This document shows positions 5 to 53,611 of a stretch of 54,144 nt of DNA, one piece after another; within the stretch, counting starts at the first letter, position 1, and every line of letters starts with the position of its first letter. The notes under the pieces were generated by a model. It saw only the letters and a program-made list of their open reading frames with translations. It did not search any database and was not told where the DNA came from. The stretch is from a virus. The position numbers and the translations under genes are program-made. The DNA lies in IMG/VR virus record IMGVR_UViG_3300025168_000115, positions 1 to 54,144 of that record; one strand, 5' to 3'.

Positions 5-565
5 TCATTTTTTCTTTCCTCTTTTTTTAGCTTTTTTGCCCCAAGACTTTCCTCTTCCTCGCTCTTTACAAGCGCCGGGAGTTGGCCGACATGCGGGGTA
101 CTTCTTTCTTTTCTCGCCTGATCCACGGCCGCAAGACTTGTATCCGCCTTTACCGTCGGGGGCATTACAATCGACCCAGCCTTTCTTCTTGCCTTTGGCT
201 CCTTTGCGACCAAACCAGTCACGGAGGGAAGATTCTTTCCCAGATTCAGTTCCAGCTTTCTTTTTCTTTTTTGATTTCTTTTTTGATTTCTTCTTCTTTT
301 TTTTCTTTTCCTCGAGAGTTCCTTCACCATAACCGCCGCCATATTCCCAATCGGGTTCATCCCAATGGTATGCCTTGGCTTCGTCAATATCTTCATCTAG
401 CTCTTGGCCTTCTTCTGCTTTTACGCAGTTGCGATATGTCTTTCCAAACATCTTCTTGGTCTTTCTCTTCTCGTGAGTCTTATAACCTTTTTGACATTTT
501 TCATCGAGAACAGCTTCGAGCTCTTCCTCTATGATTCGTTGTAAATCTTCTTTGGTTATGTTCAT
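5..565 (-). CDS. Lysine-rich putative internal virion protein
   Basis: 186 residues. The N-terminus (MNITKEDLQRIIEEELEAVL) is an acidic amphipathic helix. A long lysine/serine run follows near residues 85-105, then a basic Cys-containing tail with WVDCNAPDG, SCGRG and YPACRPTPGACK and a Lys/Arg-rich end. The helix closely matches the start of the next gene upstream (562..1278); the two genes overlap by 4 bases and are probably co-expressed. No enzyme motif is visible. By analogy with T4 internal proteins, an acidic N-terminal capsid-targeting helix followed by a strongly basic body suggests a DNA-condensing protein packaged in the head; this is inference. It could instead be an unrelated nucleic-acid-binding protein. 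The ORF is certain, the role is not. Confidence 0.6.
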   Translation of the reverse strand: MNITKEDLQRIIEEELEAVLDEKCQKGYKTHEKRKTKKMFGKTYRNCVKAEEGQELDEDIDEAKAYHWDEPDWEYGGGYGEGTLEEKKKKKKKSKKKSKKKKKAGTESGKESSLRDWFGRKGAKGKKKGWVDCNAPDGKGGYKSCGRGSGEKRKKYPACRPTPGACKERGRGKSWGKKAKKRGKKK

Positions 566-1278
566 TTTTTTTCTTGCGCCATTTTAGTTGCAGTTGCATA
601 CATTACGGACTTTGCATCAGAACCATAATCTTTTTTGAAACCTTTCATATTCTTCTTCATCCCCATTGCGAATTTTTCTTTTTGTTGCTTGTCCTTTTTG
701 GTAAGCTTCTTTTCAGATAGGTCAACATCTTTATTATCGTCCAAGATGTAGTCACCATTTTGGTGCTTCTTTACTGACGGCATATCTTCAAGGGTCTTAA
801 GGATGTCTTTCTCTTGTTCTTTCCCAAACTCTTTGAAGAATGGATCGAGTCCTGCTGCTCCACCTTCGTCTCTGAGGATCTTTTCGATCTTCTTAGGGTC
901 GACGTGGGTATAACCCTTTTTGGCCATGCTTGTGTGATCTTGCTTAACGTCAGCTGCATACTTCTTTCCGCTCTCAGGGTCGTACATGTCGTGCTTTTGG
1001 AACTCTTCCTCTAAGCCTTCCTTTTTTGAGTTACCCCAGTTTTTGGCTCCAACCTTGCGGCACTTTACAAGAGCTCCGGAAGCATATGCGGAAGGCCAAA
1101 CGTCATAGCGAGACTTTACCTTGTGATAGCAGGCATCTTTCTTCTTGGCTTTTGCTTTCTTTTTCTTTTTGCGCTTCTTCTTTTTCGCAGCTTTTCGCTT
1201 CTTACCTTTCTTCTCATCAAGCACAGCTGTGAGCTCTTCTTTGATAATCTGAATTAAATCTTTGTTACTAATTTGCAT
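562..1278 (-). CDS. Lysine-rich protein with DUF5872-like segment, putative internal protein
   Basis: 238 residues from the ATG at 1278, chosen because AAGGAG lies 5 bases upstream; an in-frame start 18 bases earlier has no ribosome site. Residues 1-23 (MQISNKDLIQIIKEELTAVL) repeat the acidic helix of the following gene. A long Lys-rich stretch follows, then a segment with DACYHKVKSRYDVWPSAYAS and NWGNSKKE, which I recognise as the DUF5872 type seen in phages and large viruses. The C-terminus ends in SVMYATATKMAQEKK, a tail common in marine T4-like phage proteins. An ACTATTTA motif sits 19 bases upstream of the start. Packaged DNA-binding protein is my inference; no catalytic residues are evident. 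Confidence 0.65.
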   Translation of the reverse strand: MQISNKDLIQIIKEELTAVLDEKKGKKRKAAKKKKRKKKKKAKAKKKDACYHKVKSRYDVWPSAYASGALVKCRKVGAKNWGNSKKEGLEEEFQKHDMYDPESGKKYAADVKQDHTSMAKKGYTHVDPKKIEKILRDEGGAAGLDPFFKEFGKEQEKDILKTLEDMPSVKKHQNGDYILDDNKDVDLSEKKLTKKDKQQKEKFAMGMKKNMKGFKKDYGSDAKSVMYATATKMAQEKK

Positions 1279-1297
1279 AACACTCCTTCGTTTCATA

Positions 1298-1305
1298 TAA
1301 ATAGT
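1298..1305 (-). promoter_or_regulatory. Putative late-promoter motif ACTATTTA
   Basis: The coding strand reads ATACTATTTATATG, 19 bases upstream of the Lys-rich gene start at 1278. The same octamer precedes several virion genes at a similar distance. The promoter role is inferred from recurrence and position. Confidence 0.4.
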
Positions 1306-1306
1306 A

Positions 1307-1486
1307 TCAAGCGACCCATTTTAGAGCTCTTCTCAGGTGATATCTTATTTTTCCATCTCTCCATTGAACTGCGATAAATCCACTGGTTAAATTTTCGCGG
1401 ACGACTATCCCCAATATATAATTTGGATTGCTTCGTTGAAGCCGGGAAGTCACAAGATCTGCGACCTTAAGGGGTCTTTGATCCAT
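1307..1486 (-). CDS. Small SH3/KOW-like protein
   Basis: 59 residues from the ATG at 1486; a TTG three codons upstream is the alternative start. It overlaps the end of the J-domain gene by 20 bases. The pattern VADLV ... YILGIVVREN ... AVQWRDGKIRYH resembles small SH3-like beta-barrels that begin with a V/G-D-L-V turn and have an LGIVV strand. Similar small proteins occur at 4523, 18768, 20053, 20246 and 20433. The fold is inferred from hydrophobic pattern only; no function is evident. Confidence 0.5.
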   Translation of the reverse strand: MDQRPLKVADLVTSRLQRSNPNYILGIVVRENLTSGFIAVQWRDGKIRYHLRRALKWVA

Positions 1487-2084
1487 CCCACTCAAACACT
1501 TGCTTTAGAAAGGCGCTGACCACCATATCTATACAACCCTGATTTCCCTCACAGTTTTGCAAGTGCCAAGCATAGGTTGTCTTTTGTTTCTGAAGCTTCT
1601 CGGACATTCTTACCACATCTTTCTCTAGAGATGTATTCGCCTCTTCGTAGTTTGGAATGTCGATTTTATATCGATCTATGACGTCAAAGAGTTCGCCCCA
1701 TTGTCCTTCATTCATCGCAACGGTTGCTCTTTGAAACGCATTGGTGAATTCTTCGTGTCTTGGGTCGGTTTGTCCAACCTTGTCTGGGTGTATTTTCTTG
1801 GCGACAGACTTAAATACATCTTTATGTTTTTTTTGCTTACCCTTCACTTCAATTCTAGAATGGTCCTCTGGATATTCTATTTTTGTTGGACTGTTTATGA
1901 TAACTTTCTTATTTTTGTCCTTCTGGAGATTATCTAGGTTAACGCCATTGTCTTCGCACCACTTTAGGTAGGTGCACTCAAAAGCTTCATTTGCCTCTCG
2001 CAATACTTCGTTATTGTATTCGAATTCAGCTTCTAGTGAACGGAACTCATTTAAGAGCTTTTTGAATTTAAGTTTGTCCTTCAT
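1467..2084 (-). CDS. J-domain (DnaJ-like) protein
   Basis: 205 residues. A central J-domain is recognisable by KSVAKKIHPDKVG near residues 91-103, with the invariant HPD, followed by a helix containing FTNAFQRATVAMNEG. The domain is flanked by predicted helical segments and lacks the Gly/Phe and Cys-rich parts of full DnaJ, so it is a J-protein of restricted type. J-proteins recruit and stimulate Hsp70 through HPD. A phage version would redirect host DnaK; the partner and client are unknown. An ACTATTTA motif lies 7 bases upstream of the ATG. The gene also overlaps the end of the upstream nucleotidyltransferase-like gene. Confidence 0.7.
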   Translation of the reverse strand: MKDKLKFKKLLNEFRSLEAEFEYNNEVLREANEAFECTYLKWCEDNGVNLDNLQKDKNKKVIINSPTKIEYPEDHSRIEVKGKQKKHKDVFKSVAKKIHPDKVGQTDPRHEEFTNAFQRATVAMNEGQWGELFDVIDRYKIDIPNYEEANTSLEKDVVRMSEKLQKQKTTYAWHLQNCEGNQGCIDMVVSAFLKQVFEWDGSKTP

Positions 2085-2988
2085 CAGAATCTAAATAGTC
2101 CGCAGACACTCGATTAGACCGAGAGCCTAGAAGAATTTCTTTCTCTGGTCTCTTGACGATTGTGGACCTCGAGGCACATAGAAAGTTTCTATATTCCTCC
2201 CAATTTCGGAGATTGTGGAAATCATCAACTGGTATCTCATGTGATTTTTCCAAACTGAGAGGTTTAAATACTTTGTCCAATCCAAACCACCTAGCTGACC
2301 ACATCTGAGATGGATCAAGGTAGATTTCCTCTCCCCATGTAGAACCAGGCGGCTTTCGGCCGGTTCCTGTACGGATTATTCTCCTAAAGTCTAGCCACTC
2401 ATCTTTGCCAAATGTAAACGACATGAAGTTGTTATCTCTCACTGTCTGTCCATTGAAGCTTATATAGCAATTCTTTTTGGAATTAATTATCCTTCTATGT
2501 TCTCGTAGCTGGTATGGGGAAAAGTACCCATGAGGGAATGAAACATAATACTTAGAAGGTATCATCCAGTCAGAGATTCTCGCTAGAGTCTTGAAAGCAG
2601 TGACTGCTCCATGTATAACGGACCATGATGTACAGTCTCTCTTATGCCTGTCTTTTGGATTGACTCCGACGTAATAAATTGGAATCCTTCTTCTAGAAAC
2701 TCCAATGTTCCTATCGAATGTCCTATGTGCCCAAACGGGATCTCCGCACCATCCGCCAAGTCTCTTTTTTATTATTGGAGCAAAGTCTCCATTAACAACA
2801 ATCCAGATAGATTTACATCCAGCCCAAGCGCACTCTACAACGGCTGCTTCCAACAGATTGTAGTTCGCAGCAATAGGCATCATGCAATCTGGCCATGGTT
2901 GGTCAAAGTCGAATGTCTCATGTCCTGCGACTGGTATGATGCCGACTAAGTTCCTACTCTCTTCCGTAGCGTCTCTAGCGTTTTCCAT
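2068..2988 (-). CDS. Nucleotidyltransferase-like protein
   Basis: 306 residues, with AAAGGAG upstream of the ATG. The N-terminus (VGIIPVAGHETFDFDQPWPD, then CMMPIAANYNLLEAAVVECA and AGCKSIWIVVNGD) follows the layout of sugar-phosphate nucleotidyltransferases: a GIIPAAG-like loop, an MP element, then a helix and strand ending in a VNGD acidic site. The basic GxGxR-K signature is altered, so substrate and activity are uncertain. The rest has no motif I can name. It overlaps both neighbours, consistent with an operon with 2946..3725. A role in making a modified nucleotide or sugar is possible but speculative. Confidence 0.5.
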   Translation of the reverse strand: MENARDATEESRNLVGIIPVAGHETFDFDQPWPDCMMPIAANYNLLEAAVVECAWAGCKSIWIVVNGDFAPIIKKRLGGWCGDPVWAHRTFDRNIGVSRRRIPIYYVGVNPKDRHKRDCTSWSVIHGAVTAFKTLARISDWMIPSKYYVSFPHGYFSPYQLREHRRIINSKKNCYISFNGQTVRDNNFMSFTFGKDEWLDFRRIIRTGTGRKPPGSTWGEEIYLDPSQMWSARWFGLDKVFKPLSLEKSHEIPVDDFHNLRNWEEYRNFLCASRSTIVKRPEKEILLGSRSNRVSADYLDSDEGQT

Positions 2989-3725
2989 GGTTTCTCCTTT
3001 GCTTGTTCCATATTATATATCTCTTCAAGTGAATATTTTGGCCTTAACGATTGAGATGTTACTCTCCTAAAGAACTCTATCTTTGGTCTCTTATAATACC
3101 TCTTATTTTTGCGTTGCCATGCGAACTTGCCGTTGATACCTGCAGACTTAAGCATGCGTAGTATCTTTATCATAGCTATACCTTGGCCATAGTCGGGACT
3201 TAAAAGTTGGTCCATGGTCATCCTAGAGGCTCCCACAAGGTCTTTTGTCTTGTTGTGTTCGACTCGGGGTGTTTTATATAAATTTAATTGATAAATGAAA
3301 TCATCCTCAGGATCGATCAACATTGTCGAGTCATTCATGGACATTTCTCGAGTATCAAAGAAATCGTAAACATTAAAAATTTTTGTCTCCTTATCGAACC
3401 TGATGAGCTCATCGACGTGTAGGGTGACTCTTTTGTTTCCAATCGTTATGATGTTGACTTCTTTCTTGTATTTGCGAATATTGGATATCCTATTTGGACA
3501 TATCATCAAAGAAGTCAAGCCAAGTGCAAAGGTTAAGTTATTATAAAGCTGCTTGGGGTCATCTGCGTTCATAAATCCAAAGTCGTAGTCCAGCAGTTTC
3601 AAATCGTGTCGAAATACATATTCGGGATCTTGCACTACGATCTTTGTCTGAGTTCTCCACGCATATAGTAGAGACTCTAGGGATCGACCAATGATTAACT
3701 TTGGTATCTTATGAGTCAAGATCAC
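2946..3725 (-). CDS. Hypothetical protein
   Basis: 259 residues, function not recognised. It starts at GTG (3725) or a TTG two codons later preceded by AAGGTG; both overlap the end of the upstream gene. The N-terminus (KLIIGRSLESLLYAWRTQTK) could begin a Rossmann-like fold, but no complete dinucleotide-binding motif is visible. The C-terminal third is very basic (WQRKNKRYYKRPKIEFFRR). It overlaps the nucleotidyltransferase-like gene downstream by about 40 bases, which suggests translational coupling and perhaps a shared pathway. Confidence 0.55.
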   Translation of the reverse strand: MILTHKIPKLIIGRSLESLLYAWRTQTKIVVQDPEYVFRHDLKLLDYDFGFMNADDPKQLYNNLTFALGLTSLMICPNRISNIRKYKKEVNIITIGNKRVTLHVDELIRFDKETKIFNVYDFFDTREMSMNDSTMLIDPEDDFIYQLNLYKTPRVEHNKTKDLVGASRMTMDQLLSPDYGQGIAMIKILRMLKSAGINGKFAWQRKNKRYYKRPKIEFFRRVTSQSLRPKYSLEEIYNMEQAKEKPWKTLETLRKRVGT

Positions 3726-4530
3726 CTTTGCTATTTCTCTGCTTGATCAATTCTTCTGGTGTGTCGTAGCCGGTTGCTCCGTCGTCCCAAGCATTTTCGC
3801 CCTTGGCAAACCATTGTGGTTCCTTCTCGGTGCTTGGAGCCTCAGAGTCTGGGTCTTTGCTAAATGTTTTTCTCAATTCGTCTCTTTCTTCTATCATTTC
3901 AGACTTCATGAGTCCACGACCATCAGTAGACATCCACCAATCATTCATTTGACCATATAGACCTGATACCTTACCAGCTCCACCAACATATTTTTTCCCG
4001 AGTTCTAATTCAACAGACATCTGGTTACTAAAGAAAAAATTCAAGTAGTCTTCCCAGAAATGCTTTTCATATATGATATTCTTGTCTTTTTTTGGTAGTT
4101 TTGCAAAATCTTTTGATGTTAACTCAGAATAACCTCTTCCTTCGTAACTTATGTTTTCAAGTCTCTCTTCGAGTTCAATATAATATGATACAACTTGAAA
4201 TCTTATAATCTTACGAACTATTTTTAGTCCAAACAATCTAAACCACCAAAATGTAACTCCAGAAGCCAATAGCGCTTTGACTTTCGACAAGGGGGTCTTA
4301 TAGCCTCTAGTTCCCGTGGGTGGGATATCTTCTTCTTCAAGGTCATCGATCAATTTTTGAAAATTTTTATTAATAAAAGTTTTCAATGAATCTTTAAATG
4401 TTGGATTGGTAGAGGTAAAGGTTTCTAGAAACAAATCCAAACTACCAGGCATTACTCCGATCAAATCATACAATCCTTTGTTGTCCTCAGATAGTAGCTT
4501 ACTCTCATTTATAATTTTAACCTTATACAT
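3709..4530 (-). CDS. Hypothetical protein with possible capsid-targeting N-terminus
   Basis: 273 residues, not recognised. The first residues (MYKVKIINESKLLSEDN) resemble the short helix ending in LxE seen at the start of other proteins here, a possible gp21-type cleavage signal. A hydrophobic segment around residues 86-108 (LLASGVTFWWFRLFGLKIV) could contact membrane or form a core. The last 60 residues are acidic and polar. AAAGGA precedes the ATG and an ACTATTTA motif lies about 40 bases upstream inside the preceding gene. A structural or packaged role is a guess. Confidence 0.5.
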   Translation of the reverse strand: MYKVKIINESKLLSEDNKGLYDLIGVMPGSLDLFLETFTSTNPTFKDSLKTFINKNFQKLIDDLEEEDIPPTGTRGYKTPLSKVKALLASGVTFWWFRLFGLKIVRKIIRFQVVSYYIELEERLENISYEGRGYSELTSKDFAKLPKKDKNIIYEKHFWEDYLNFFFSNQMSVELELGKKYVGGAGKVSGLYGQMNDWWMSTDGRGLMKSEMIEERDELRKTFSKDPDSEAPSTEKEPQWFAKGENAWDDGATGYDTPEELIKQRNSKGDLDS

Positions 4531-4777
4531 CGTTGTTTAGTCCTTTTAAGAATTGTTCTGGTACCATTTTAAATAGTTCATTATCGATCTTAATATTGTA
4601 AGACCAAAATTCATTTGGAAAACCTGACTTTGTAGGCCAGTCGTGTTCAAACATCAATTGAGGCTCGGAAACTATAATTCCTAAGCCGTCGATTAGTTCA
4701 CCAATAAAATCTTGACGGAACATGACAAGGTCACCAATTGAAAACTTAGGTCCCTCGCAAATCACGATAAGCACCAA
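4523..4777 (-). CDS. Small SH3-like protein
   Basis: Up to 84 residues. It contains FSIGDLVMFRQDF then GLGIIVSEP, the G-D-L-V and GIIV pattern shared with the mini-proteins at 1307 and 20053-20639. The first codons lie inside the end of thyX and the start is unclear: TTG at 4777, an internal GTG, or a later start are all possible and none has a good ribosome site. The tail (LFKMVPEQFLKGL) ends 8 bases into the next gene. Function unknown. Confidence 0.45.
   Translation of the reverse strand: MVLIVICEGPKFSIGDLVMFRQDFIGELIDGLGIIVSEPQLMFEHDWPTKSGFPNEFWSYNIKIDNELFKMVPEQFLKGLNNDV
4570..4577 (-). promoter_or_regulatory. Putative late-promoter motif inside upstream gene
   Basis: AACTATTTAA on the coding strand, 40 bases upstream of the start at 4530 and within the small gene 4523..4777. 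It has the same octamer as the motifs before virion genes. Being intragenic, it could be chance. Confidence 0.3.
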
Positions 4778-5450
4778 TTGAATAAGGCCAGATTTCTTCT
4801 GCGATCTCTAAACATGATTTTGCTACCTGTTGTATTTCCCATTGGGCACCTTCATGAGTGCGAAGGTCTATAAACTTAAGTAGGTTCGACAAGTTAACAG
4901 TTCCGTAATACTTCGCATAAAGGTTTTGAGGAAGAACTCCTCTCGCTTGCTCTCGACAAACTCCTTTAGCGATCAAATGGTTGAATAGATCCAACGCATG
5001 CTTGTGAAAAGCAACCATGGCGTCTGATGACTTAATGTAAGTGTCGGCAAACCGTGGTGTAATTACTGGATCAATCAAGCCATCTAGATTGGAAGCTTGA
5101 CGGTTGCTCTCATGTTGAGTTCTGAAAGCCTTTGGTTCATAGAACTTCAGGTCAATTTCAGTGTATCGTCGTGAGATTTCATTGTAAGCCCAAGTCCGGT
5201 GTCTCATGTGCTGAGACCTTACGAACATTGGAACTTCAAACATAAATGTAATCGAGTTGTGCTCGAATGGTGACGTGTGCCTATGCTTGATCAAATACTT
5301 AATCAAACCCTTATCTTTTTTAGTTAAGGGCTTGGTGTTATCTTGACCAAAGGACACACGAGCGGCATTAGCTATCATCTTATCATCTCCAACATGTTGG
5401 ATATAAGAGACCTTGCCAATACCGTCTCCGTAAAGTTTTATTTCTTTCAT
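4746..5450 (-). CDS. thyX: FAD-dependent thymidylate synthase ThyX
   Basis: 234 residues, the usual ThyX length. The diagnostic ThyX motif is complete: RHRTWAYNEISRRY near residues 82-95, with preceding HTSPFEHNSITF and MFVRSQHMRHR. ThyX makes dTMP from dUMP using methylene-tetrahydrofolate and FAD/NADPH, independently of the host ThyA. AGAGGA lies 4 bases before the ATG. With the class II ribonucleotide reductase at 6872 it forms a nucleotide-supply module. Marine T4-like phages commonly carry ThyX in place of the T4 td enzyme. Identification is firm. Confidence 0.95.
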   Translation of the reverse strand: MKEIKLYGDGIGKVSYIQHVGDDKMIANAARVSFGQDNTKPLTKKDKGLIKYLIKHRHTSPFEHNSITFMFEVPMFVRSQHMRHRTWAYNEISRRYTEIDLKFYEPKAFRTQHESNRQASNLDGLIDPVITPRFADTYIKSSDAMVAFHKHALDLFNHLIAKGVCREQARGVLPQNLYAKYYGTVNLSNLLKFIDLRTHEGAQWEIQQVAKSCLEIAEEIWPYSIGAYRDLRGT

Positions 5451-5478
5451 GATTCCTCTATATTTTTATTTTCTTACC

Positions 5479-6282
5479 TTAAGTCGTAATTGGACGCTTA
5501 TTGTATAAGTCATCATCGCTCATCGGAGCGTTTGATGGATCATCCGAATAAAATGGAATTTGAAACTTCTTACCGGTTCTCGAAGAAGTAAATAGATTCG
5601 TTGCTTGTTGGACATTTGCTCCCGCAAGAACCATATCTCGTTCATCCTCAACATGATAGTCTGTGATGGCCGATGGATCATAGTTATAATCTCTACCGCT
5701 GAAGTGATTCGCTCTTAAGTTAAACATAGTAAAGGTCATCCAAATCTTGAAAGATCCTTGTGGTGGTTGAGACATGATGGAGTCAGGCGATCTGTCCTTG
5801 AAGTCTGGGTCTTCAAAATTTGCATCGTAATCTGATAGGTTCGTTGCTTTCATTTTTTGACCAAACACAATCGCATCCTGTAAATACTTCTTACCTAGCC
5901 TAATCGCATCCATCTTATCGATATCAAAAACCAAAAAGCTTAATTCTGGTCCAAAATATTCTCCGTCAACTTCCATATACTCCAAATTTAAAGAGTCTAG
6001 GTCTTGTCTTAATTCGGCCATCTTTGCTGAATTATCCCAATCTAATTTAACATCATTGATTTGACGTCTAATCTTGCGGAATGATCCTTGATTTTTATCG
6101 TCGTTTGGATCTATTACTTTCGCAGGTGGATTTTCTGCTGTAATTATCGCAACGGTTGCAGGTCCACTTTCTGATTGTAGAGTGCCTAATAATTTATCCA
6201 AGTTTTGATCTGTAGAGCCTATTTGTGCTTCGCTTAAAACCTCGTATATCATTTTTTTTAGCTTTTTAGTTGTAAGTTTCAT
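5479..6282 (-). CDS. DUF3293-like protein with possible capsid-targeting N-terminus
   Basis: 267 residues. The N-terminus (MKLTTKKLKKMIYEVLSEAQ) is an amphipathic helix ending in LSE-A, matching the LxE/A type of site cut by T4-like prohead proteases. Residues about 35-140 (ATVAIITAENPPA ... EYFGPELSFLVFDID ... GKKYLQDAIVFGQ) follow the DUF3293 pattern, a family of unknown function often in phage and bacterial genomes. The C-terminal half is unrecognised. An ACTATTTA motif lies about 40 bases upstream of the start. It overlaps the GroES-like gene by 4 bases. DUF3293 assignment is by pattern only. Confidence 0.6.
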   Translation of the reverse strand: MKLTTKKLKKMIYEVLSEAQIGSTDQNLDKLLGTLQSESGPATVAIITAENPPAKVIDPNDDKNQGSFRKIRRQINDVKLDWDNSAKMAELRQDLDSLNLEYMEVDGEYFGPELSFLVFDIDKMDAIRLGKKYLQDAIVFGQKMKATNLSDYDANFEDPDFKDRSPDSIMSQPPQGSFKIWMTFTMFNLRANHFSGRDYNYDPSAITDYHVEDERDMVLAGANVQQATNLFTSSRTGKKFQIPFYSDDPSNAPMSDDDLYNKRPITT

Positions 6283-6560
6283 TCTTCTAGTCTCCCGTAG
6301 ACATAATTTTCTTTAACGACGTAAATAGTCTCAGATCCGGCTTTTATCTCCTGAACCGTAGTTCTATCTGCTATGATCGAGTCTCCGATCTTTAATGAGA
6401 TGGAGCAGTCTTCAGCCATACCTATCACCTCTCCTATAATATATGGAGACTTGGGGGGTTGGTATTCTTCAGGCATCACAAAGAGTGGTGCTTCTTTGTC
6501 TTCTTTCTTTTCGTTCAACGGTAAGATCCATAGGTGTCGGTTGTGTGGTTCAAAATGCAT
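6279..6560 (-). CDS. GroES-like co-chaperonin (gp31-type function)
   Basis: 93 residues from the ATG at 6560, chosen for TTTGGAGG 5 bases upstream. Start and end match the GroES fold used by phage co-chaperonins: HNRHLWILPLNEK, then LFVMPEEYQPPKSPYIIGEV, IGDSIIADR and a final YVVKENYVYGRL. Between residues 15 and 30 is an acidic segment (EKKEDKEAPL) where GroES carries its mobile loop. T4 needs gp31 to replace GroES when folding gp23, so this protein probably caps host GroEL for capsid folding. An early promoter (6626..6654) drives it directly. Confidence 0.75.
   Translation of the reverse strand: MHFEPHNRHLWILPLNEKKEDKEAPLFVMPEEYQPPKSPYIIGEVIGMAEDCSISLKIGDSIIADRTTVQEIKAGSETIYVVKENYVYGRLEE
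6322..6329 (-). promoter_or_regulatory. Putative late-promoter motif inside upstream gene
   Basis: GACTATTTACG on the coding strand, inside the GroES-like gene and about 40 bases before the DUF3293-like gene at 6282. It matches the motif before virion genes; intragenic position lowers certainty. Confidence 0.3.
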
Positions 6561-6625
6561 TTTTCCTCCAAATAAAAAAATCACAATATGTTATATTGGG
6601 AACAAAATTAACTGTTCTTGTTTAT

Positions 6626-6654
6626 AATATAACATATTGTGATTGAGTTGTCAA
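6626..6654 (-). promoter_or_regulatory. Early sigma70-type promoter (GroES-like gene)
   Basis: The coding strand has -35 TTGACA (6654-6649), a 17-base spacer and -10 TATATT (6631-6626) with an extended TGT just before it. It precedes the GroES-like gene start by about 65 bases. It is one of eight promoters in the window sharing this architecture. Confidence 0.8.
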
Positions 6655-6664
6655 GTAAAAACTT

Positions 6665-6859
6665 TCACTTTTCTTCGTGAGATTTTTTTGCTTCTTGAAT
6701 TACTGTTCGAACTTCTCTAAGTTCTTTTGAAGCCTCCATGAGAGTCTTTCGGGCTCTAGGGGCTGCAGATTTATAACCATATGACCCTGCTTCGATTTTG
6801 TCCAAGTCATCCATCACCTCTTTAAGATCATGAATAATTTTTTCTAATTGTTCTCTCAT
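6665..6859 (-). CDS. Histone H1-like (Hc1-type) small protein
   Basis: 64 residues, almost entirely helical. An N-terminal acidic helix (MREQLEKIIHDLKEVMDDLD) is followed by GSYGYKSAAPRARKTLMEAS, which matches the conserved centre of the bacterial Hc1 family (GNKAAxxRxRK), then another charged helix. It lacks the long Lys/Ala tail of chlamydial Hc1. Related small proteins occur in Bacteroidetes, chlamydiae and marine phages, where they bind nucleic acid. It follows nrdJ and ends before the early promoter of the GroES-like gene. The family assignment is by eye. Confidence 0.5.
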   Translation of the reverse strand: MREQLEKIIHDLKEVMDDLDKIEAGSYGYKSAAPRARKTLMEASKELREVRTVIQEAKKSHEEK

Positions 6860-6871
6860 ACTTTTCTCCTG

Positions 6872-8728
6872 TTAAAATATATCACAGGCTCCACCGCCAC
6901 ATGCAATTTCACCCGACAGATCTGTCTCATCTGTTATTTCAATAACTAGGTCTAGGTCAACATTTTTGACCAACGAGAGCATCTTTTCATATGTCTCAAC
7001 GTCACAGTCTTCATAAGGGGCTTGGACGTAACTGCCCAAATCCATCGGGAGCACGCTTAGGCCATTGTAGACTCCACGGTTAGTCCACATCCACTCTCCA
7101 ACAGTTTCCCACTCATCATCTTTGATGCTTACTGTAGCTGAGACGTTGTGAGTGTTGTTCCCTTTCTTGTGGCCGGGCTTGATCCACTCACAAGAAACCT
7201 TTTTTACTCTCTCGAGCAAATCAAGTGCTGTTTCGTGGCGCGTTATTGCCCCTTCAGGAGCTTTTTGCGGCACAGATAGGATAGCAGTGTCGTGTGGTCT
7301 AAAGCGACAGTCCTCGATGAGCTCAGGCAGGTTATTGACGAGATACGAATAGATTGCTTCACCCTTTCCAACGCGAAGTCTTCTAATATAATAGTCATTG
7401 TGCCAAGCGTGAATTCCGCTTGATGTACCAAGAGTAAGAGAAGTTGTTCCTGCTGGTTTAACACATGTTTGTCGTGCAGCCTGATTGATACCGGTTTGCA
7501 TTGCGACTTGACGGTTCATCTTTGAGATTTCCAAAGAGGCCTCAGTCATGTTTAACTCAAGCACACCGCCAGATGCAATGCCGGTCATTGAGACGCCGAT
7601 GAGCGCATCTTTCTCGGTTGTACGACGCCAGACAGGTCTAAGGTAATGAAAGTCCGTGTAGGACGCCTGAAGCGTTCCTATGAACGATGCTGCACGAGAG
7701 CGAGCATTTAACTCGTCTTGGGTGTTTACATCTGAGACGTTTATCTCAACCAAGTTGCAGAACTGGTTTGGTCTTAAACCAATCTCACAACATGGATTGC
7801 ATCCCCAATCTTTATCATTGGAAAAGTAGAATCCGGGCTCTCCTGATCGAGACTCTTCGACACGCTTCCATAGACTCATGAAAGTTGGCTTATCAATTCT
7901 ATGTCGCATTACGACTACAGAGTTGTTTGCTCGTCCTCGTTGAGGGTTGAGTTCCCACCATGCCCCTGCTTTTGCCGAGAGCATATCTTCGTCATCAGCA
8001 CTGAATAGAGATATAAGGGCGGCGCGGCGAATACCCCCCGCCAAAACCGCATCCGCAATATAGCAGATGATATCATGAACCTCAATAGTAGTGAGTTTGT
8101 CACCGTTTTCTTTCGCATCTAAAATTCCCTCTATTTTTACTAGACATTCTCTAAGTGGTTGTGGACCGGGTGCCTTACCACCGGATGTAACTAGTCTCGC
8201 ACCTTTCGGACGGATGTCTGAAAAGTCAAAACGTAATCGGGATGTGCCTTTAAAGTAAGACATCATTAGAGCCTTCACGGAATCGGCCCAACCTTCGATA
8301 GAGTCTCCAACTAGAAACCTACGTGTTCGTTTTGATGATGGTCTATGTATCTCAGGGAGACTTTCTACGTGATGGTGTTGTACTGAATAGCCGACGCCTG
8401 TTCCTCCAAGCAGTAGGAACATGATCTCTCCGAACACTCGGGGATCATCTGCAGGTGTGTATGCGCAATTAAAGATGCGGTTTGGAGAAACCTCAATTGG
8501 CTTTCCTCCGAACTGCATTGAACGCATAGATGGTAAGACCTGCTTGTCGTAGACAAACTTATAGTTCTCACGAATTTCTTGTTCTAAACTGGGAAATTTT
8601 TTGATGTGCATTTGCATGTTTCTGGTAACTAATTCGTCCCAGTTCTCTCGGCGGTGTTCCTTTTCCATGTATCGTGCATACTTCATGTGGACGGTGATGT
8701 CCGATAAAATCTTCTTCTCTAAATCCAT
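6872..8728 (-). CDS. nrdJ: Class II (B12-dependent) ribonucleotide reductase
   Basis: 618 residues. Characteristic elements appear in order: VLPSMRSMQFGG, NRIFNCAYTPADD with the first active-site Cys, FLLLGGTGVGYSVQ, the radical-site region CNLVEINVSD, then GTSSGIH. The C-terminus ends in ACGGGACDIF with a redox Cys pair. No partner small subunit is present, as expected for a monomeric adenosylcobalamin enzyme. It reduces ribonucleotides to deoxyribonucleotides for replication and works under aerobic or anaerobic conditions if the host supplies B12. AGGAG lies before the ATG. It sits between the replicative helicase and the Hc1-like gene. T4 itself carries class I and III enzymes, so this is a replacement. 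Confidence 0.9.
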   Translation of the reverse strand: MDLEKKILSDITVHMKYARYMEKEHRRENWDELVTRNMQMHIKKFPSLEQEIRENYKFVYDKQVLPSMRSMQFGGKPIEVSPNRIFNCAYTPADDPRVFGEIMFLLLGGTGVGYSVQHHHVESLPEIHRPSSKRTRRFLVGDSIEGWADSVKALMMSYFKGTSRLRFDFSDIRPKGARLVTSGGKAPGPQPLRECLVKIEGILDAKENGDKLTTIEVHDIICYIADAVLAGGIRRAALISLFSADDEDMLSAKAGAWWELNPQRGRANNSVVVMRHRIDKPTFMSLWKRVEESRSGEPGFYFSNDKDWGCNPCCEIGLRPNQFCNLVEINVSDVNTQDELNARSRAASFIGTLQASYTDFHYLRPVWRRTTEKDALIGVSMTGIASGGVLELNMTEASLEISKMNRQVAMQTGINQAARQTCVKPAGTTSLTLGTSSGIHAWHNDYYIRRLRVGKGEAIYSYLVNNLPELIEDCRFRPHDTAILSVPQKAPEGAITRHETALDLLERVKKVSCEWIKPGHKKGNNTHNVSATVSIKDDEWETVGEWMWTNRGVYNGLSVLPMDLGSYVQAPYEDCDVETYEKMLSLVKNVDLDLVIEITDETDLSGEIACGGGACDIF

Positions 8729-8752
8729 TACTTACTCCTGTAAATGTTTGTT

Positions 8753-10108
8753 TTATTTTCCTGCTTTCGCATATTTGTCTTTGAGCATTTGCAACGCATC
8801 CGACGTTGATTGCATTCTCTCTGCTGATTCGTCTCTGTCCAATATCTTGATGGTAACGTCAGACCAATCAACGAAAGCATCAAACACAAGGCCATCTGGG
8901 CCGTTCCGATTCTTCGCAACGAAAAGGCGGCCCTTGTTCGCTTGCTTGTCTTGCACAGTTCTCGATAGAGAAAAGATAAAGTCAGCAACGAAACACTTGT
9001 TAAACGCTTCAGAGATCGCTTCCATAGTGATAACTTCAGCATTGAGACCTCCTCGGTTTGTTTGAGATGCAGTCCAACAAGGGATCTCATAAGACTGAGC
9101 AAGCCCACGAAGACCTTCGTAGGTCTCCTCTAACTCATGACGCTTCTCTCCGGTTGCCCGTGGAGGTCGCAATAAGTCGGCATAGTCAACCAAGATCATA
9201 TCAGGCTCAATGCCTCTCTTCCGTAATTTCTCAATGTGATTTTTGAGAGTTGAAACGGAAGCTGATTTGGTTGGATACTCTTTGATAATTAGAGTACCTT
9301 GAAGGTCTTTTACTTTATTGACGATTTCTTTTTGTCTCTCTTTGTGTTCCTGAAGTGGTACGTCAGTTATACAGCAATCAAATCGTTGACCAACTGTCGT
9401 ATCTTTAAGTTCCAAAGTGTAATAAACGACAGTCTTGCCTTGCAAGAGAGCCTGTGTGGCCAAGTGAACGAGAACCATTGACTTTCCAGCACCTGTTGGA
9501 GCTACAACTACACCAAGTTCTGATTTGCCAAGGCCGCCCTTAACAATCTCATCCATTCGAGCCCATCCTGTTGAAATAGGATCTCTTGTTACAGATTCAA
9601 AACGCTTGAGTAGATCTTTACGGAAGTCATGACCAAAATTATTATCTGTACCAAGGACGAGTGCATCTTTGATAAGTTTCTCTATTTCCTCAAAGGAGGA
9701 AGACTTTAACAACGCTGCTGATTTCATCATTGCTTGCTTTAAGACTTGTTTACGACAGAAATCAATAGATTTGTCCTTGATGAAATCAAGTTCTTCTACT
9801 CCGTCAGATGTATGAATACGAGCGTAGAACTCTCTCACATCTTTTTGCGTAGCTTTATCATGGTGATTTAATTCTGTTCGCAACAAAGTCATCATCACTT
9901 CGTTATTTGGATGAGTATTATATTTGTTGCGATAGTTAATCAATGTTTGTGCGAAAATTTGCAAATACTTCTTTTCAAAGAAGGTGATATCTAAAACTTC
10001 CGTAATTTGATCGAAAAATGGTCGATCCTCCAACATGAGTTGGCATAAGTTTTCTTGAAAGTTTTTTCCGAAACGCATAAAGGTTTCGCTCTTGTTAAAT
10101 TCGTTCAT
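8753..10108 (-). CDS. DnaB-like replicative helicase (gp41-type)
   Basis: 451 residues. The C-terminal RecA-like core has Walker A APTGAGKS (about residues 205-212), Walker B DMILVDYADLLRP and a sensor region with WTASQTNRGG, the order found in DnaB/gp41 helicases. The N-terminal 180 residues are helical, as in the ring-collar domain. It unwinds DNA ahead of the fork, normally with a DnaG/gp61 primase that is not in this window. A consensus early promoter lies just upstream. It is followed after 24 bases by nrdJ. Confidence 0.85.
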   Translation of the reverse strand: MNEFNKSETFMRFGKNFQENLCQLMLEDRPFFDQITEVLDITFFEKKYLQIFAQTLINYRNKYNTHPNNEVMMTLLRTELNHHDKATQKDVREFYARIHTSDGVEELDFIKDKSIDFCRKQVLKQAMMKSAALLKSSSFEEIEKLIKDALVLGTDNNFGHDFRKDLLKRFESVTRDPISTGWARMDEIVKGGLGKSELGVVVAPTGAGKSMVLVHLATQALLQGKTVVYYTLELKDTTVGQRFDCCITDVPLQEHKERQKEIVNKVKDLQGTLIIKEYPTKSASVSTLKNHIEKLRKRGIEPDMILVDYADLLRPPRATGEKRHELEETYEGLRGLAQSYEIPCWTASQTNRGGLNAEVITMEAISEAFNKCFVADFIFSLSRTVQDKQANKGRLFVAKNRNGPDGLVFDAFVDWSDVTIKILDRDESAERMQSTSDALQMLKDKYAKAGK

Positions 10109-10138
10109 TTGTCCTCCCAGACTTTTATCGGTTATATA

Positions 10139-10167
10139 ATTATAACCTATAACGGTTCACTTGTCAA
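10139..10167 (-). promoter_or_regulatory. Early sigma70-type promoter (helicase gene)
   Basis: TTGACA at 10167-10162, a 17-base spacer, and a perfect TATAAT at 10144-10139. It drives the helicase and probably nrdJ. Unlike its siblings it lacks the TGT before the -10. Confidence 0.85.
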
Positions 10168-10173
10168 GTTTTT

Positions 10174-11124
10174 TCACTTATTTATTCTTCGAAACACCAA
10201 CTGCAAGTCTGTGAAGTTGAGATGGCCGGCATCATCAACAAAGAGCATTTGTGTGAACTTTATTTTATTGAATGTTGGTTCGAAGTCATTGATTGCTTTT
10301 TTGATGATCTCTCGATTCATCGGCCTGATGTTTGGGAATTGTAATTGCATGATCGCATAGTTGTCTTTGATTAACTGCTCATCCTTTTGAATGTTCTCGT
10401 GGATCTTAAGCTTTTTTCCGACCATCACACAGTCCTTTACAATATCTCCGACTTCATATTCGTCCTCTCTGATGAGATAGGGGAACCGCTTCGCAATAGT
10501 CTTAAGACCTGCTCCTTTGATCCCCGGTAAATTGTCCGACGAATCGCCAGCGATGGCTCGTGCTAATGCGAAGTTCTTTGGGTGAATCTTGAATTGTTCT
10601 ACGACAGTTTGTTCAGTTACAATTTTTTTCTGAATTGGTCGGTAAATTTGAACATCATCTCGACATAATTGAAAAAAGTCTTTGTCACTTGATATGATTG
10701 TCTTTTTCCAACCGGCATACTTTGGATGATTAATTACTAACGCAATAATATCATCCGCTTCCGTAAAGTCTGCAACAAGTTGGATCACAGGCATTTCATT
10801 TAGATATTCCATAAGTCTAATTTGCTGATATCCTTTATTGGCCTCTTCTTTGTCTTCAGGTATATCTATCATTCTTCGGTTGAATCTCACCGGTTTTCTT
10901 CCGCCTTTGTAGTTCTTGTTCATCGAACGTCGTCTCTGAGAGCCTTCATGGCCATCCCAGGCTATTATAACCTCATCAGCAGTAAAGTCCCTAGCTACCT
11001 TCTGAAGGCTCTTTAAGAAGCCTATGGTGCCCCCGATGGGCATACCATTTTTGTCCAGCTGTGGGCTTATTACATAGCTACGCAAAAACATGTTCAGCGC
11101 ATCGATTATTATTACATTTTTCAT
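10174..11124 (-). CDS. 5'-3' exonuclease / flap endonuclease (T4 RNase H type)
   Basis: 316 residues. FEN-family acidic clusters are visible in order: NVIIIDALNMF near the start, IIAWDGHEGSQRR, TEADDIIA near residue 121, SSDKDFFQL, and the helix-hairpin-helix GDSSDNLPGIKGAGLKTI around residues 193-210. The enzyme removes RNA primers and 5' flaps at the lagging strand. It stands in for the 5' nuclease domain of bacterial Pol I, fitting the polymerase-only family A enzyme at 20633. It overlaps the AlaRS-like gene by 4 bases, so both share the promoter at 12004. A 21-base piece of it recurs at 12099. Confidence 0.9.
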   Translation of the reverse strand: MKNVIIIDALNMFLRSYVISPQLDKNGMPIGGTIGFLKSLQKVARDFTADEVIIAWDGHEGSQRRRSMNKNYKGGRKPVRFNRRMIDIPEDKEEANKGYQQIRLMEYLNEMPVIQLVADFTEADDIIALVINHPKYAGWKKTIISSDKDFFQLCRDDVQIYRPIQKKIVTEQTVVEQFKIHPKNFALARAIAGDSSDNLPGIKGAGLKTIAKRFPYLIREDEYEVGDIVKDCVMVGKKLKIHENIQKDEQLIKDNYAIMQLQFPNIRPMNREIIKKAINDFEPTFNKIKFTQMLFVDDAGHLNFTDLQLVFRRINK

Positions 11125-11984
11125 TTGTCCTCCAGACTTTTTATGAAATCAATATCTATTCCCATGGTGTCGAACCACCACTCGTTGGACTTGTCTTTAA
11201 ACTTGGGTTTGTCCTTGTTTCTATTGTAGTTTTCTACAACCTTGTCTTGTCTCTTCTTCTCCTTAAGGTAGTGTTCATTATCCCAATCTGAACCCAATCT
11301 GTAGAGTTCCCTGAGAAGCTTGCGAAACACATAACCTTGCTCCTTGTTGCTTGGGTAATAACCAGAGTAAAGAAGCTTCTCGCATGCTTGGATTAGGATC
11401 TCTTCCCTTGTCTCTTCGTTATCTCCATTGACGAACATGTTAAGTCTTTGAAGACCAAATCCGACGTCAATGCACGTTCCAAGTGGGTTTACGATGTTTC
11501 CAATCTCGACGTCGTCCTTGAAGAACTCTGTGCAGTAGCCACCAATTTGTCCATCGGTCCACTTGCACTCTTCATCTGGTCTGACTTCTACATCATAGTT
11601 TTCGTAAAGGCTTTTCCAATCCTCCATCTTATCCGGATGGATGGTAACGTAATCTACTTTGATCCCTAGGGTGTCTTCGACGAACTCCATCCAAAAGTCA
11701 ACTGACTGCTGAACCGTAAGAGTCCTGAAAGAGAATAACCCTATCATATCAAAATAAAGATAGTGTGTTCCATCACCTATCTCCTCAAGGTCATTGAGTC
11801 TTATGCATGACTGCACGTTTGCTAGTGTTCCCGTCTCTTCCGACTTAAACCTCTCTTTGAATTGCTGCATTCCTGCAGGGCAAAACAATGTTGTATTGTC
11901 GTAAGGCCGGACATTGTCGTCCAATTGGAATTGAACTCCTTTGCTAGCACAAAAATTTCTATATAAATCAATTATATCTATCAT
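11121..11984 (-). CDS. Alanyl-tRNA synthetase-like catalytic fragment
   Basis: 287 residues from the ATG at 11984, chosen for CGGAGG 7 bases upstream; a longer reading would run through the promoter. It matches the N-terminal third of AlaRS: TTLFCPAGMQQFKERF (31-46), class II motif 2 region QSCIRLNDLEEIG then YFDMIGLFSF (58-86), motif 3 DVGFGLQRL (173-181), and PSNKEQGYVFRKLLREL (211-227), which corresponds to the PSNxGxGYVLRRIIRR start of the tRNA-binding region. The rest of that region, the editing domain and the C-Ala domain are absent (AlaRS is about 875 residues). It probably activates alanine or a related acid; the acceptor is unknown. Confidence 0.75.
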   Translation of the reverse strand: MIDIIDLYRNFCASKGVQFQLDDNVRPYDNTTLFCPAGMQQFKERFKSEETGTLANVQSCIRLNDLEEIGDGTHYLYFDMIGLFSFRTLTVQQSVDFWMEFVEDTLGIKVDYVTIHPDKMEDWKSLYENYDVEVRPDEECKWTDGQIGGYCTEFFKDDVEIGNIVNPLGTCIDVGFGLQRLNMFVNGDNEETREEILIQACEKLLYSGYYPSNKEQGYVFRKLLRELYRLGSDWDNEHYLKEKKRQDKVVENYNRNKDKPKFKDKSNEWWFDTMGIDIDFIKSLEDK

Positions 11985-12003
11985 AATATGTCCTCCGTAT
12001 GAT

Positions 12004-12032
12004 AATATAACATGTCTAAGGCGACGTGTCAA
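12004..12032 (-). promoter_or_regulatory. Early sigma70-type promoter (AlaRS-like gene)
   Basis: TTGACA at 12032-12027, 17-base spacer ending in ACATGT, TATATT at 12009-12004. It lies 20 bases before the AlaRS-like start and also serves the flap endonuclease gene. Confidence 0.85.
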
Positions 12033-12044
12033 GTAAAAAGGGTA

Positions 12045-12089
12045 AAAAAAAACCCCAACTCCGAAGAGAAGGGGTTTATGAGTAACTTC
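12045..12089 (-). terminator. Rho-independent terminator, copy A of a duplicated element
   Basis: The coding strand forms AACCCC ... GGGGTT with an inner CTC-TTCG-GAG stem, followed by nine T. It ends transcription of 12126..12647. The same 45 bases with one mismatch occur at 12690-12734. Confidence 0.85.
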
Positions 12090-12098
12090 ATCGGTGTC

Positions 12099-12119
12099 AA
12101 AGTCCCTAGCAACCTTCTG
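12099..12119 (-). pseudogene. Short duplicated fragment of the flap endonuclease gene
   Basis: These 21 bases match 20 of 21 bases at 10984-11004 inside the flap endonuclease gene and read in frame as QKVARDF; the bases after it still resemble the parent (DTDEV against TADEV). It lies between 12126..12647 and its terminator. It looks like the scar of an unequal recombination event. Too short to be functional. Confidence 0.5.
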
Positions 12120-12125
12120 TTGGTT

Positions 12126-12647
12126 TCATTTTCTTACACCAATTAATTCTTTAATTGCTTCCACTATCATTTGTTTTAGTTTTGCTTCTGTGAGTTGAAA
12201 TAAATTGTTCTCTTGCAGGTCTTTTCTTCTTTTCATTTTATCTTTTAGTTGTTTAATAAATTTATCAATTCTTCTCAAGATTTTTTCTCCATTACGGGCG
12301 TGGTTGGATAGCGCACCTGTGATCGCTGGGATCGTTCTAGGAATACCAGGCCCTCTATGAAAGTCGCCAACACTAAAGATAGGTGTTGGATTGGGATCAT
12401 AATATTTTTCATTTGGATGGCTGAGTTGGATGCCCGGCACCCAGCTGTGGAAAATCCTAACTGCTATGTTTTTTCGTTCGTCTCGTGCTTTTTGCATAGC
12501 GGCGTCTAGTTCATCAACTCTTTGGTAGTAGTCCGGTCCTGGATTTTGGGACATGTTTGCCCATTCTTCGTAGACTTGTCTTACCACCTCTCTGTTTTCT
12601 TCAAGATCCATGATTGCTTGTTCAATAACTTGTCTTTTTGGGTTCAT
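12126..12647 (-). CDS. Hypothetical accessory protein
   Basis: 173 residues, not recognised. Mostly helical at both ends, with a proline/glycine-rich centre (PGIQLSHPNEKYYDPNPTPI, FHRGPGIPRTIPAITG). The C-terminus (LFQLTEAKLKQMIVEAIKEL) is the same kind of amphipathic helix found at the N-terminus of several other proteins in the window. GGAGAA precedes the ATG and an ACTATTTA motif lies 23 bases upstream. It is bracketed by two copies of one terminator and stands between early genes uvsX and the AlaRS-like gene, so it looks like an inserted late gene. Confidence 0.55.
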   Translation of the reverse strand: MNPKRQVIEQAIMDLEENREVVRQVYEEWANMSQNPGPDYYQRVDELDAAMQKARDERKNIAVRIFHSWVPGIQLSHPNEKYYDPNPTPIFSVGDFHRGPGIPRTIPAITGALSNHARNGEKILRRIDKFIKQLKDKMKRRKDLQENNLFQLTEAKLKQMIVEAIKELIGVRK

Positions 12648-12670
12648 CGCGAGTTCTCCATTGATGATAT

Positions 12671-12678
12671 TAAATAGT
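12671..12678 (-). promoter_or_regulatory. Putative late-promoter motif ACTATTTA
   Basis: GCACTATTTAATATC on the coding strand, 23 bases before the start of 12126..12647 and downstream of the uvsX terminator, so this gene would have its own promoter. Confidence 0.45.
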
Positions 12679-39342: not shown

Positions 39343-41130
39343 TTACAACAAGTCACGACAAATGACCAATCCGTACATATCCGGACGAACCATTTTCTTA
39401 CCGTAACGAGTCATAACACCTTTGCGAGGAACGAAGTCTTCAGGTCCAAAGATGGTAGGAGTTGTTTGCAATGGTACATATGGAGCGTAAACATATCCAC
39501 TTTCCAAGAAAGAAGCGCCTTTACGACCGACCAAGAGTGCGTTACGTGGGAAGTATGGATCAACGATAACGTCGAACTTACGGTTCAAAGAACCAACCTT
39601 AACAGCACCGATGTCGCCTTTGTCAGCGTCAGCAGTAACGTTCGCACGGAATCCAGCTGTGAATTCCAAGATGTTCGCAACTTCAGGAGAAACAACTACG
39701 AAGTTAGCACCACCACGCAAAGTCTTACGATGGATTTGTGCAGAGACGTCATTGACTGTTTCGATCAAAGTTTCATACCATTCAGAAACAGTACCCGTGA
39801 AGTCAGGACCTTGTACACCGCCAGCGGTAAGGTCAGCACCAGTCAATCTATTTACAAATAAACCAGGTGAGCGAGACCAGTAGAAAGTCCCAGCAGTTGC
39901 GCCGTTAACCAAGTCAGACAAGATTTCACGGTCGATTTCAAGAGCGATTTGCTCAGAAAGGATAGAAGTCAATTCTACTTCAGCATCCAAGTTATGGTAA
40001 GCGTTCAAGTCTTGACCCAATTCTGGAGTCCACTTTGCTTTCAACTTCTTGGTTACCGCTGTGATTGCGATTGATTCAACTTTGATGTCGATCTCTGGAA
40101 TTTGCGTTTCACCTTCAAGTCCCCAACTAGCAGCACCAGCGATAGAACCAAGTCCACCACCTTCTTCAAAGGTATCTTTTGCAGGATAAGAACCAGCACC
40201 AAAGATAGAAGCGCGTCCACCACCAGTAATTACTCCGGCACCGGCGAGTGCTTTACCACCAGTTGCATCCATTTTGTAAGTCAAGGTCAAAGTAAGCTTG
40301 TCGCTAGAGATTGAAGTCAAACGACGGATTTGAACAGCGCTAGCTTGATCTTTTGCTGAAGCTCCATCATTAACTGTTTTCAAGGGAACGATGATTGCTC
40401 CTACTTGATCCAAGTTCATTGCAAAACCAGAAGCATCCAATGCTGCAACTGTTACGGTTACTTGAAGAAGCTTGTCTGTTGCTGCATAAGTTGATGCGAT
40501 ATCTGGATCAAAGTCGATAGAGGCCTCATCAAAAGTCGAGTGTCCGATTGTTGCCGAGTTAGAGAATCCATCTAATGTAGTAGAGACGCTGGCGATTGCT
40601 ACATCTGTAGCAATAGAGCCTGTCGGTGAAGAATAAGCTGATTGAAAACCGTAAGGTTGCTTGTCCAACTCAACAGAAGTCAAGTTAACACCACCAGTGA
40701 TTTGAGAGCCAGTTACTCCTTGTCCATAGATAGAGTCACTATTTGTTTGTCCTAAGCGGTTATAAGCTCCGTTAGGTGGATTGTTTGGATCTGTTCCGAA
40801 AGTGAAATCCAAGAAGAAGATTAATCCACTTGGAAGAGACATTGGTTGTACAGAAACCAAGTCGTTCGCAATCAATCCAGCGAATACACGACGAACGATT
40901 GGGAATGCAACAGCAGCGAAACCTTCGACAGATCCACCAGCCATTGTGTTAGACTCACGCAATAATTCGCGAGCTTGATTCTCCAATAGACGAGCCATTG
41001 AAGCTTTTTTGTTTTCATCGGTCAAGCCTTCTAAAAGACCGGTTTGTGACCATTTGTTTAAAAGAGCGGCACCTTCTTGTTGCATATTGCGGTGTACCAT
41101 CCCTTCTGTTAGAGTTTCGATAATAGACAT
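39343..41130 (-). CDS. Major capsid protein (gp23-like)
   Basis: 595 residues (T4 gp23 is 521). The N-terminal 60 residues are a helical leader (HRNMQQEGAALLNKWSQTGL) with a likely gp21-type cleavage in ARELLRE-SNTM near residue 60. The body starts AVAFPIVRRVFAGLIANDLV then SVQPMSLPSGLIFFLDFTFG, the hallmark of gp23. The end (EDFVPRKGVMTRYGKKMVRP) is also typical. It forms the hexameric capsid shell and probably needs the GroES-like protein for folding. A strong terminator follows. Confidence 0.95.
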   Translation of the reverse strand: MSIIETLTEGMVHRNMQQEGAALLNKWSQTGLLEGLTDENKKASMARLLENQARELLRESNTMAGGSVEGFAAVAFPIVRRVFAGLIANDLVSVQPMSLPSGLIFFLDFTFGTDPNNPPNGAYNRLGQTNSDSIYGQGVTGSQITGGVNLTSVELDKQPYGFQSAYSSPTGSIATDVAIASVSTTLDGFSNSATIGHSTFDEASIDFDPDIASTYAATDKLLQVTVTVAALDASGFAMNLDQVGAIIVPLKTVNDGASAKDQASAVQIRRLTSISSDKLTLTLTYKMDATGGKALAGAGVITGGGRASIFGAGSYPAKDTFEEGGGLGSIAGAASWGLEGETQIPEIDIKVESIAITAVTKKLKAKWTPELGQDLNAYHNLDAEVELTSILSEQIALEIDREILSDLVNGATAGTFYWSRSPGLFVNRLTGADLTAGGVQGPDFTGTVSEWYETLIETVNDVSAQIHRKTLRGGANFVVVSPEVANILEFTAGFRANVTADADKGDIGAVKVGSLNRKFDVIVDPYFPRNALLVGRKGASFLESGYVYAPYVPLQTTPTIFGPEDFVPRKGVMTRYGKKMVRPDMYGLVICRDLL

Positions 41131-53595: not shown

Positions 53596-53611
53596 TCTTC
53601 TCTCCATTAAT

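Follow-up and report, generated by a model that had tools for sequence, protein, structure and literature searches.

What role is played by a short amphipathic helix that recurs at the ends of otherwise unrelated proteins encoded by the IMG/VR virus fragment IMGVR_UViG_3300025168_000115? This stretch of 54,144 bases, hereafter the window, holds nearly all its genes on the minus strand, and an earlier note on it had likened the helix to the capsid-targeting sequences (CTSs) of phage T4, propeptides that are cut off in the prohead by the protease gp21. Comparison of the window with related phages suggests that the helix, here called the class I tag, is very probably a capsid-targeting propeptide, new in sequence and used much more widely than in T4. 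The purpose of the tag would most likely be the loading of small proteins into the phage head, for injection with the DNA. The T4-type reading of the earlier note is thus supported by several independent lines of inference, which are the modularity of the tag, the hydrophobic-x-Glu at its edge, promoters that are late and never early, the co-occurrence with gp21, the swapping of tags on homologous proteins, and L/F-Q-E ahead of the C-terminal tag.

Tag carriers in the window

As judged from its gp21 S77 protease and gp23 capsid genes, the window phage is a marine T4-like myovirus; it also has tail sheath and tube genes of the T4 type, along with replication genes that are T4-like. The record G010 belongs to the same phage (99.98% identity across 36.9 kb) and reaches 25 kb beyond the right end of the window, adding four class I genes (17233-22951) and one gene (24692) with the class II tag described below.

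The helix had been assigned to six window proteins, and it was recognized in four of them. Three carry it at the N-terminus, namely 5..565 (MNITKEDLQRIIEEELEAVLDE), 562..1278 (MQISNKDLIQIIKEELTAVLDE, when Met7 of the listed open reading frame (ORF), with its ATG at 1278, is taken as the translation start, as is most likely) and 5479..6282 (MKLTTKKLKKMIYEVLSEA); in 12126..12647 (LTEAKLKQMIVEAIKEL) it is C-terminal. The N-terminus of the 3709 protein (MYKVKIINESKLLSEDNKG) misfits the motif, and this protein has no relative among the proteins of the related records, hence it is to be dropped from the proposed packaged set. The N-terminus of 52546..52971 (MNKEQLRKTLKPLIKECIKEVIFEEG) is only loosely tag-like and belongs to a full-length conserved gene that adjoins gp21 in related records; it is not a tag on variable cargo, and the product of this gene is probably a head protein of the core type and not one of the cargo proteins. 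The features are as follows.

500..565, minus strand: class I tag (22 aa) of 5..565, ending V-L-D-E↓K (arrow, putative cut)
5..565, minus strand: gene for a 186-aa basic, Lys-rich tagged cargo, without a late motif of its own
1213..1278, minus strand: class I tag of 562..1278, ending V-L-D-E↓K
562..1278, minus strand: basic tagged cargo gene with phage domains of unknown function (phrog_727, phrog_12788)
6229..6282, minus strand: class I tag of 5479..6282, ending L-S-E↓A (residue 18)
5479..6282, minus strand: tagged cargo gene with a DUF3293 domain at residues 83-138
12129..12194, minus strand: C-terminal class I tag LTEAKLKQMIVEAIKELIGVRK of 12126..12647
12210..12218, minus strand: predicted cleavage site L-Q-E↓N just ahead of the C-terminal tag
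12126..12647, minus strand: cargo gene tagged at the C-terminus
52546..52971, minus strand: small conserved head-cluster gene after gp21, with a tag-like N-terminus

The AlphaFold model of the 5479 protein had a pLDDT of 34. The 562..1278 protein and its relatives contain recurring phage domains, KVKSRYDVWPSAYASGALVKCRKVGAKNWG and a C-terminal SVMYATATKMA, in differently arranged proteins.

A modular tag on unrelated proteins

The search for the same helix in related phages, which had been proposed as a check, found it to be far more widespread than first noted. The class I consensus, M-K-[IL]-T-K-x-x-L-K-[QR]-I-I-K-E-E-L-x-x-V-[LM]-x-E, spans 22 N-terminal residues, and it was present on 425 distinct proteins from related contigs, which represent 292 unrelated cargo clusters. 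A blind scan for N-termini common to non-homologous proteins recovered the known CTS of T4 in T4, and tag clusters of 3-11 proteins in most relatives of the window phage; hence, by both the 292 clusters and the blind scan, the tag has the form of a short N-terminal propeptide on otherwise unrelated proteins, as does a CTS. In the gp21 clade the tag was carried by 92 of 1388 proteins, in random phage loci by 0 of 1536. In 17 related records the N-terminal motif was matched on up to 13 proteins per record, versus 0-0.4 expected from shuffled N-termini; a few rough matches in related records, which are homologues of 37126, homologues of 52546 or chance, are not tagged cargo. The conservation ends sharply, as it drops from 1.67 bits at E22 to ~0.3 bits two residues on across the 292 clusters, and from 2.51 to 0.4 bits past E22 in the closest set.

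Because tblastn with the 25-aa consensus gave no match among isolate phages, the tag was traced by DNA patterns and profiles. A scan of IMG/VR with the exact pattern LK[QR]IIKEEL returned at least 240 matches, of which 220 out of 240 had ATG at the tag start, while ~10 of the remaining 20 had GTG there. Only 16 matches were found in 257 Gb of cellular genomes, and four of these were tag-like at the start of a protein; all four came from metagenome-assembled bins, three of them on contigs of <25 kb, and they may be misbinned phage. The tag strings were not found in a text search of a library of papers. A chance origin of the tag was excluded by the shuffles and the random phage loci. A general amphipathic helix was rejected as well, given that the control LKELIEKLKK, which is itself somewhat more specific, occurred in 2 viral stretches versus at least 120 for LKQIIKEEL.

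Among isolates, Flavobacterium phage vB_FspM_immuto (NC_055915) has, according to the blind scan, a small related tag set (MKKSQLRQIIKEAL..., MKKSELVKLIKEEL...). Two more N-termini, MENFDLKKFLVENKLT and MKKQILSEQFKRMQFLAGIITES, are shared by non-homologous proteins of this phage (genes 1803, 118632, 103806, 117631 and 25061, 111675).

Late promoter motif upstream of tagged genes

The earlier note had placed a common motif upstream of five of the six genes, all except 5..565. This motif is indeed present there, as ACTATTTA 19-39 bases ahead of the ATGs of 562 (inner start), 3709, 5479 and 12126, and with one mismatch before 52546, but it is not peculiar to this set. The location of the motif among early genes, which had also been remarked, is exemplified by the site at 6322-6329.

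1298..1305, minus strand: late motif ACTATTTA; distance to the ATG at 1278, 19 bases
6322..6329, minus strand: late motif ACTATTTA, located within the groES-like ORF that lies upstream; distance to the 5479..6282 ATG, 39 bases
12671..12678, minus strand: late motif ACTATTTA; distance to the 12126..12647 ATG, 23 bases
52992..52999, minus strand: TCTATTTA, which differs from the late motif at one position; distance to the 52546..52971 ATG, 20 bases

The sequence ACTATTTA was the strongest 8-mer upstream of genes (124 upstream windows versus 2 for its reverse complement), and over 18 whole records it occurred 219 times on the coding strand versus 9 on the opposite one. It also precedes head and tail genes, which makes it a general late motif, while TTGACA-type sites lie ahead of early genes. 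Among 95 tagged genes, 35 had a late and none an early promoter motif of their own, compared with 200 late and 85 early among untagged genes (Fisher p 1.9e-5). Judged by the promoter motif, the tagged genes are expressed late, as expected for CTS-bearing proteins. More generally, ACTATTTA (late) and CTTGACAA (early) are sharply separate promoter-like motifs upstream of genes in the 18 records.

Putative processing site and link to gp21

T4 gp21 cleaves after L/I-x-E (PMC9026906), and the class I tag ends in such a site. The motif [LIMV]xE occupied residues 20-22 in 50% of clusters, versus ~2% at other positions past the tag, and [LIM]xE occurred within residues 16-34 in 74% of clusters, versus 16-22% in body windows. 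The head genes of the window that bear on processing are these.

52972..53607, minus strand: gp21-type prohead serine protease (Peptidase_S77), the proposed tag cutter (PF03420, E 5.3e-33; phrog_207, E 3.2e-59)
39343..41130, minus strand: major capsid protein gp23 (PF07068, E 2.4e-73)
40954..40962, minus strand: L-R-E↓S in gp23 (residues 57-59↓60), with LxE↓[SA] in 14/14 relatives
41148..42320, minus strand: likely scaffold, by its position (that of gp22, immediately upstream of gp23) and its conservation in relatives; no family match in Pfam/PHROG profile searches

The conserved LxE↓[SA] of gp23, between residues 59 and 60, would be the gp21 site of this clade, and it is presumably the counterpart of the T4 gp23 cleavage at residue 65.

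In the family of 12126..12647, L/F-Q-E immediately precedes the C-terminal tag in all 10 of 10 sequences, and LTE (L209), ITE (L275) or IME (L092) is located just ahead of other C-terminal tags. In 12126 homologues such as L526-L529 more sequence follows the tag, so that it lies between two parts of the chain. For internal tags, L/I/M/V-x-E was counted ahead of the tag in 9/15, a number distorted by ORFs running past the real start, and for this reason only the C-terminal families were used to define the pre-tag site.

A gp21-type S77 protease, as a CTS demands, is encoded by the window (52972-53607) and by tag contigs. Peptidase_S77 was detected in 20 of 26 tag contigs (≥64 kb) versus 1 of 14 random phage contigs (p 3e-5), and in 12 of 13 tag contigs of ≥100 kb. 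The 6 of 26 tag contigs that lack S77 also lack gp23, hence they probably miss the head region.

A second tag and its exchange with class I

Other late genes of the same phages begin with a class II tag, MENWRKFLKE, which fitted 32 of 3052 proteins versus 0-3 in shuffles. In common with MKTYQEFIAE of T4 it has an aromatic residue at position 4, F7, L/I8 and E10; mapping of the T4 CTS has assigned importance in targeting to positions 4 and 7, and in processing to positions 8 and 10 (PMC9026906). Class II thus matches T4 at all four positions, while class I does not, and the class I profile has no match in T4.

The two tags replace each other on homologous cargo. Between the class II protein L059:7802 and the class I protein L141:18448 the identity is 79% across 167 aa, a stretch that begins immediately behind the tags, and an acetyltransferase family likewise occurs with either tag, including the class II gene of the window phage (L002:8818 = G010:24692). 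Sequence comparison therefore reveals a natural exchange of class I and class II, consistent with the interchangeability between cargo expected of CTSs. Separately, in the marine virus AG-345-F15 (L457, 12845-14580) three adjacent genes begin with MKTFQEF, MKSFSKF and MKTFYQF, likely a capsid-targeting tag of the cyanophage lineage.

Cargo proteins

The cargo has a median length of 95 aa after the tag and is mostly without a Pfam match. The matched proteins include a pentapeptide repeat, an L,D-transpeptidase, a P-loop kinase (polynucleotide kinase PHROG), an acetyltransferase, an exonuclease and DUF3293. Proteins resembling 2H-type phosphoesterases occur under both tag classes; the matches are weak, although H-x-T is present twice in all A3 rows, and AlphaFold gave a moderate model with weak matches to CNPase. 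In the predicted structure of one cargo protein, a helix at residues 5-22 is followed by a low-confidence linker at 21-26. These cargo types would suit proteins that act at once on entry into the cell, and their roles are probably early counter-defence or host take-over.

Weighing of the explanations

Several observations weigh against a capsid-targeting role. In the examined part of the records G003, G005 and G008 the blind scan shows no tag cluster, and a profile search did not find the class I tag in T4, Syn9, KVP40, P-SSM2 or HTVC008M, so it is not a T4-wide element. The tag counts rest on simple ORF calls, and the contig statistics take no account of shared ancestry. About one-quarter of the cargo clusters have no [LIM]xE in residues 16-34, and two window tags (5..565 and 562..1278) end in LDE↓K. 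The conservation of E22 could in part be explained as a helix-end preference; a helix end alone, however, would not call for the hydrophobic-x-E that C-terminal tags have on their other side. The residue after the tag is broad (E, G, Q, A, S) and not mainly A, as in T4. Hence, the LxE-A that the earlier note saw after some helices holds for 5479..6282, while its strict form is not needed.

The helix could instead dock proteins onto another structure of the phage or the host, such as a membrane, replication or ribosome complex, unrelated to the head. In favour of this, the helix is amphipathic, and the cytoplasm could be the place of action of a few cargo types (kinase, exonuclease, acetyltransferase). 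We consider it unlikely: the promoters are late and never early, none of the replication genes of the window is tagged, and the association with the head protease, the hydrophobic-x-Glu at the tag edge and ahead of C-terminal tags, and the exchange with a T4-CTS-like tag also speak against it. Recruitment to the prohead core of core or assembly factors, which would be degraded or expelled before maturation rather than injected, has a precedent in the T4 core proteins gp22, gp67 and gp68, most of which is lost after cleavage into fragments (PMC9026906), and the gene 52546 beside gp21 has a similar start. This is also improbable, as conserved factors would be common to relatives, whereas the cargo is very diverse, mostly clade-specific and has recognisable enzyme folds, and its body windows are not rich in L/I/M-x-E.

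The remaining two explanations are very remote. Divergence within one paralogous family, with an N-terminus that has simply remained conserved, could account for the frequent arrangement of the tagged genes in runs, yet the 292 clusters have no detectable body similarity, they comprise distinct folds (acetyltransferase, 2H phosphoesterase, P-loop kinase, exonuclease, pentapeptide repeat), homologous bodies occur under different tags, and some tags are located C-terminally or internally. A signal in the DNA or mRNA, such as a promoter or translation enhancer whose sequence encodes a helix by coincidence, would fit the position at gene starts; against it, all six codons are used for Leu8, which indicates an amino-acid signal, other tag positions vary synonymously, and the same peptide is found at C-termini.

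Under the capsid-targeting reading, many small unrelated proteins would be made late in infection with a common amphipathic helix, N-terminal or sometimes C-terminal or internal. The helix would bind the assembling prohead core, and the cargo would be enclosed as the gp23 shell forms. Then gp21 would cut at the hydrophobic-x-Glu on the tag edge and the peptide would leave, while the freed cargo would stay with the DNA and be ejected at the next infection. In its full form we hold the proposal to be probable: class I would be an undescribed class of CTS, unlike that of T4 in sequence, and the universal loading label of a large marine T4-like lineage, with several to ~10 small effectors per phage and hundreds clade-wide (2H phosphoesterases, acetyltransferases, nucleic-acid kinases, exonucleases), some of them two-domain chains cut by gp21 on the near side of an internal tag.

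Other genes of the window

A ClpP-like protease gene (14278-14916, minus strand), with matches to head-maturation-protease PHROGs, gives the window phage a second protease beside gp21. Two small neighbouring lipoprotein-like genes (13846-14281, minus strand) have low-complexity tails (FLACGDKEEEQ..., LFACGEKEVT...). A ribosomal protein bS21-like gene (52352-52573, minus strand; MKPRKGETMEKFIKRFTKKCKKLGI...), recognised by eye, lies two genes from gp21, and the same bS21-like/gp21 gene order is present in Microcystis phage Mel-JY01. A gp21-near context has already been described for phage bS21 (PMC9723584).

Comparison with known systems

The bodies of injected phage proteins have nothing in common, which makes such proteins difficult to find; a strong and common label, if the proposal is true, would turn the search for them into a sequence search alone. 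In uncultured marine phages, 292 candidate cargo families are already marked by the tag, the majority of them lacking any known domain. The tag would in addition provide a second capsid-targeting peptide, distinct from that of T4, with which proteins could be loaded into phage heads, and would allow a direct test of co-evolution between targeting signals and prohead proteases.

The closest parallel is the CTS of the T4 internal proteins IPI-IPIII (MKTYQEFIAE↓A), which is likewise a short N-terminal propeptide on unrelated small late proteins, with a hydrophobic-x-Glu end, in a gp21 phage; the T4 proteins Ip1-Ip3 all block restriction enzymes (PMC12373910). In contrast to the T4 CTS, class I is a 22-residue amphipathic helix without aromatic residues and without a match in T4, it is carried by many more proteins per genome, and it can be C-terminal or internal. 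The gp21 processing at the C-terminus of T4 Alt (PMC9026906) resembles the case of 12126..12647, but in the latter the C-terminal piece is the very tag that other proteins bear N-terminally, and it is preceded by L/F-Q-E. In the giant phages phiKZ and SPN3US, too, head and ejection proteins bear propeptides that a gp21 homologue removes by cleavage after Glu; many head proteins have such an N-terminal propeptide, and two of them have identical N-termini (PMC5694885, PMC9026906). In contrast to class I, several of these propeptides exceed 100 residues, and no common short tag is spread over dozens of unrelated proteins.

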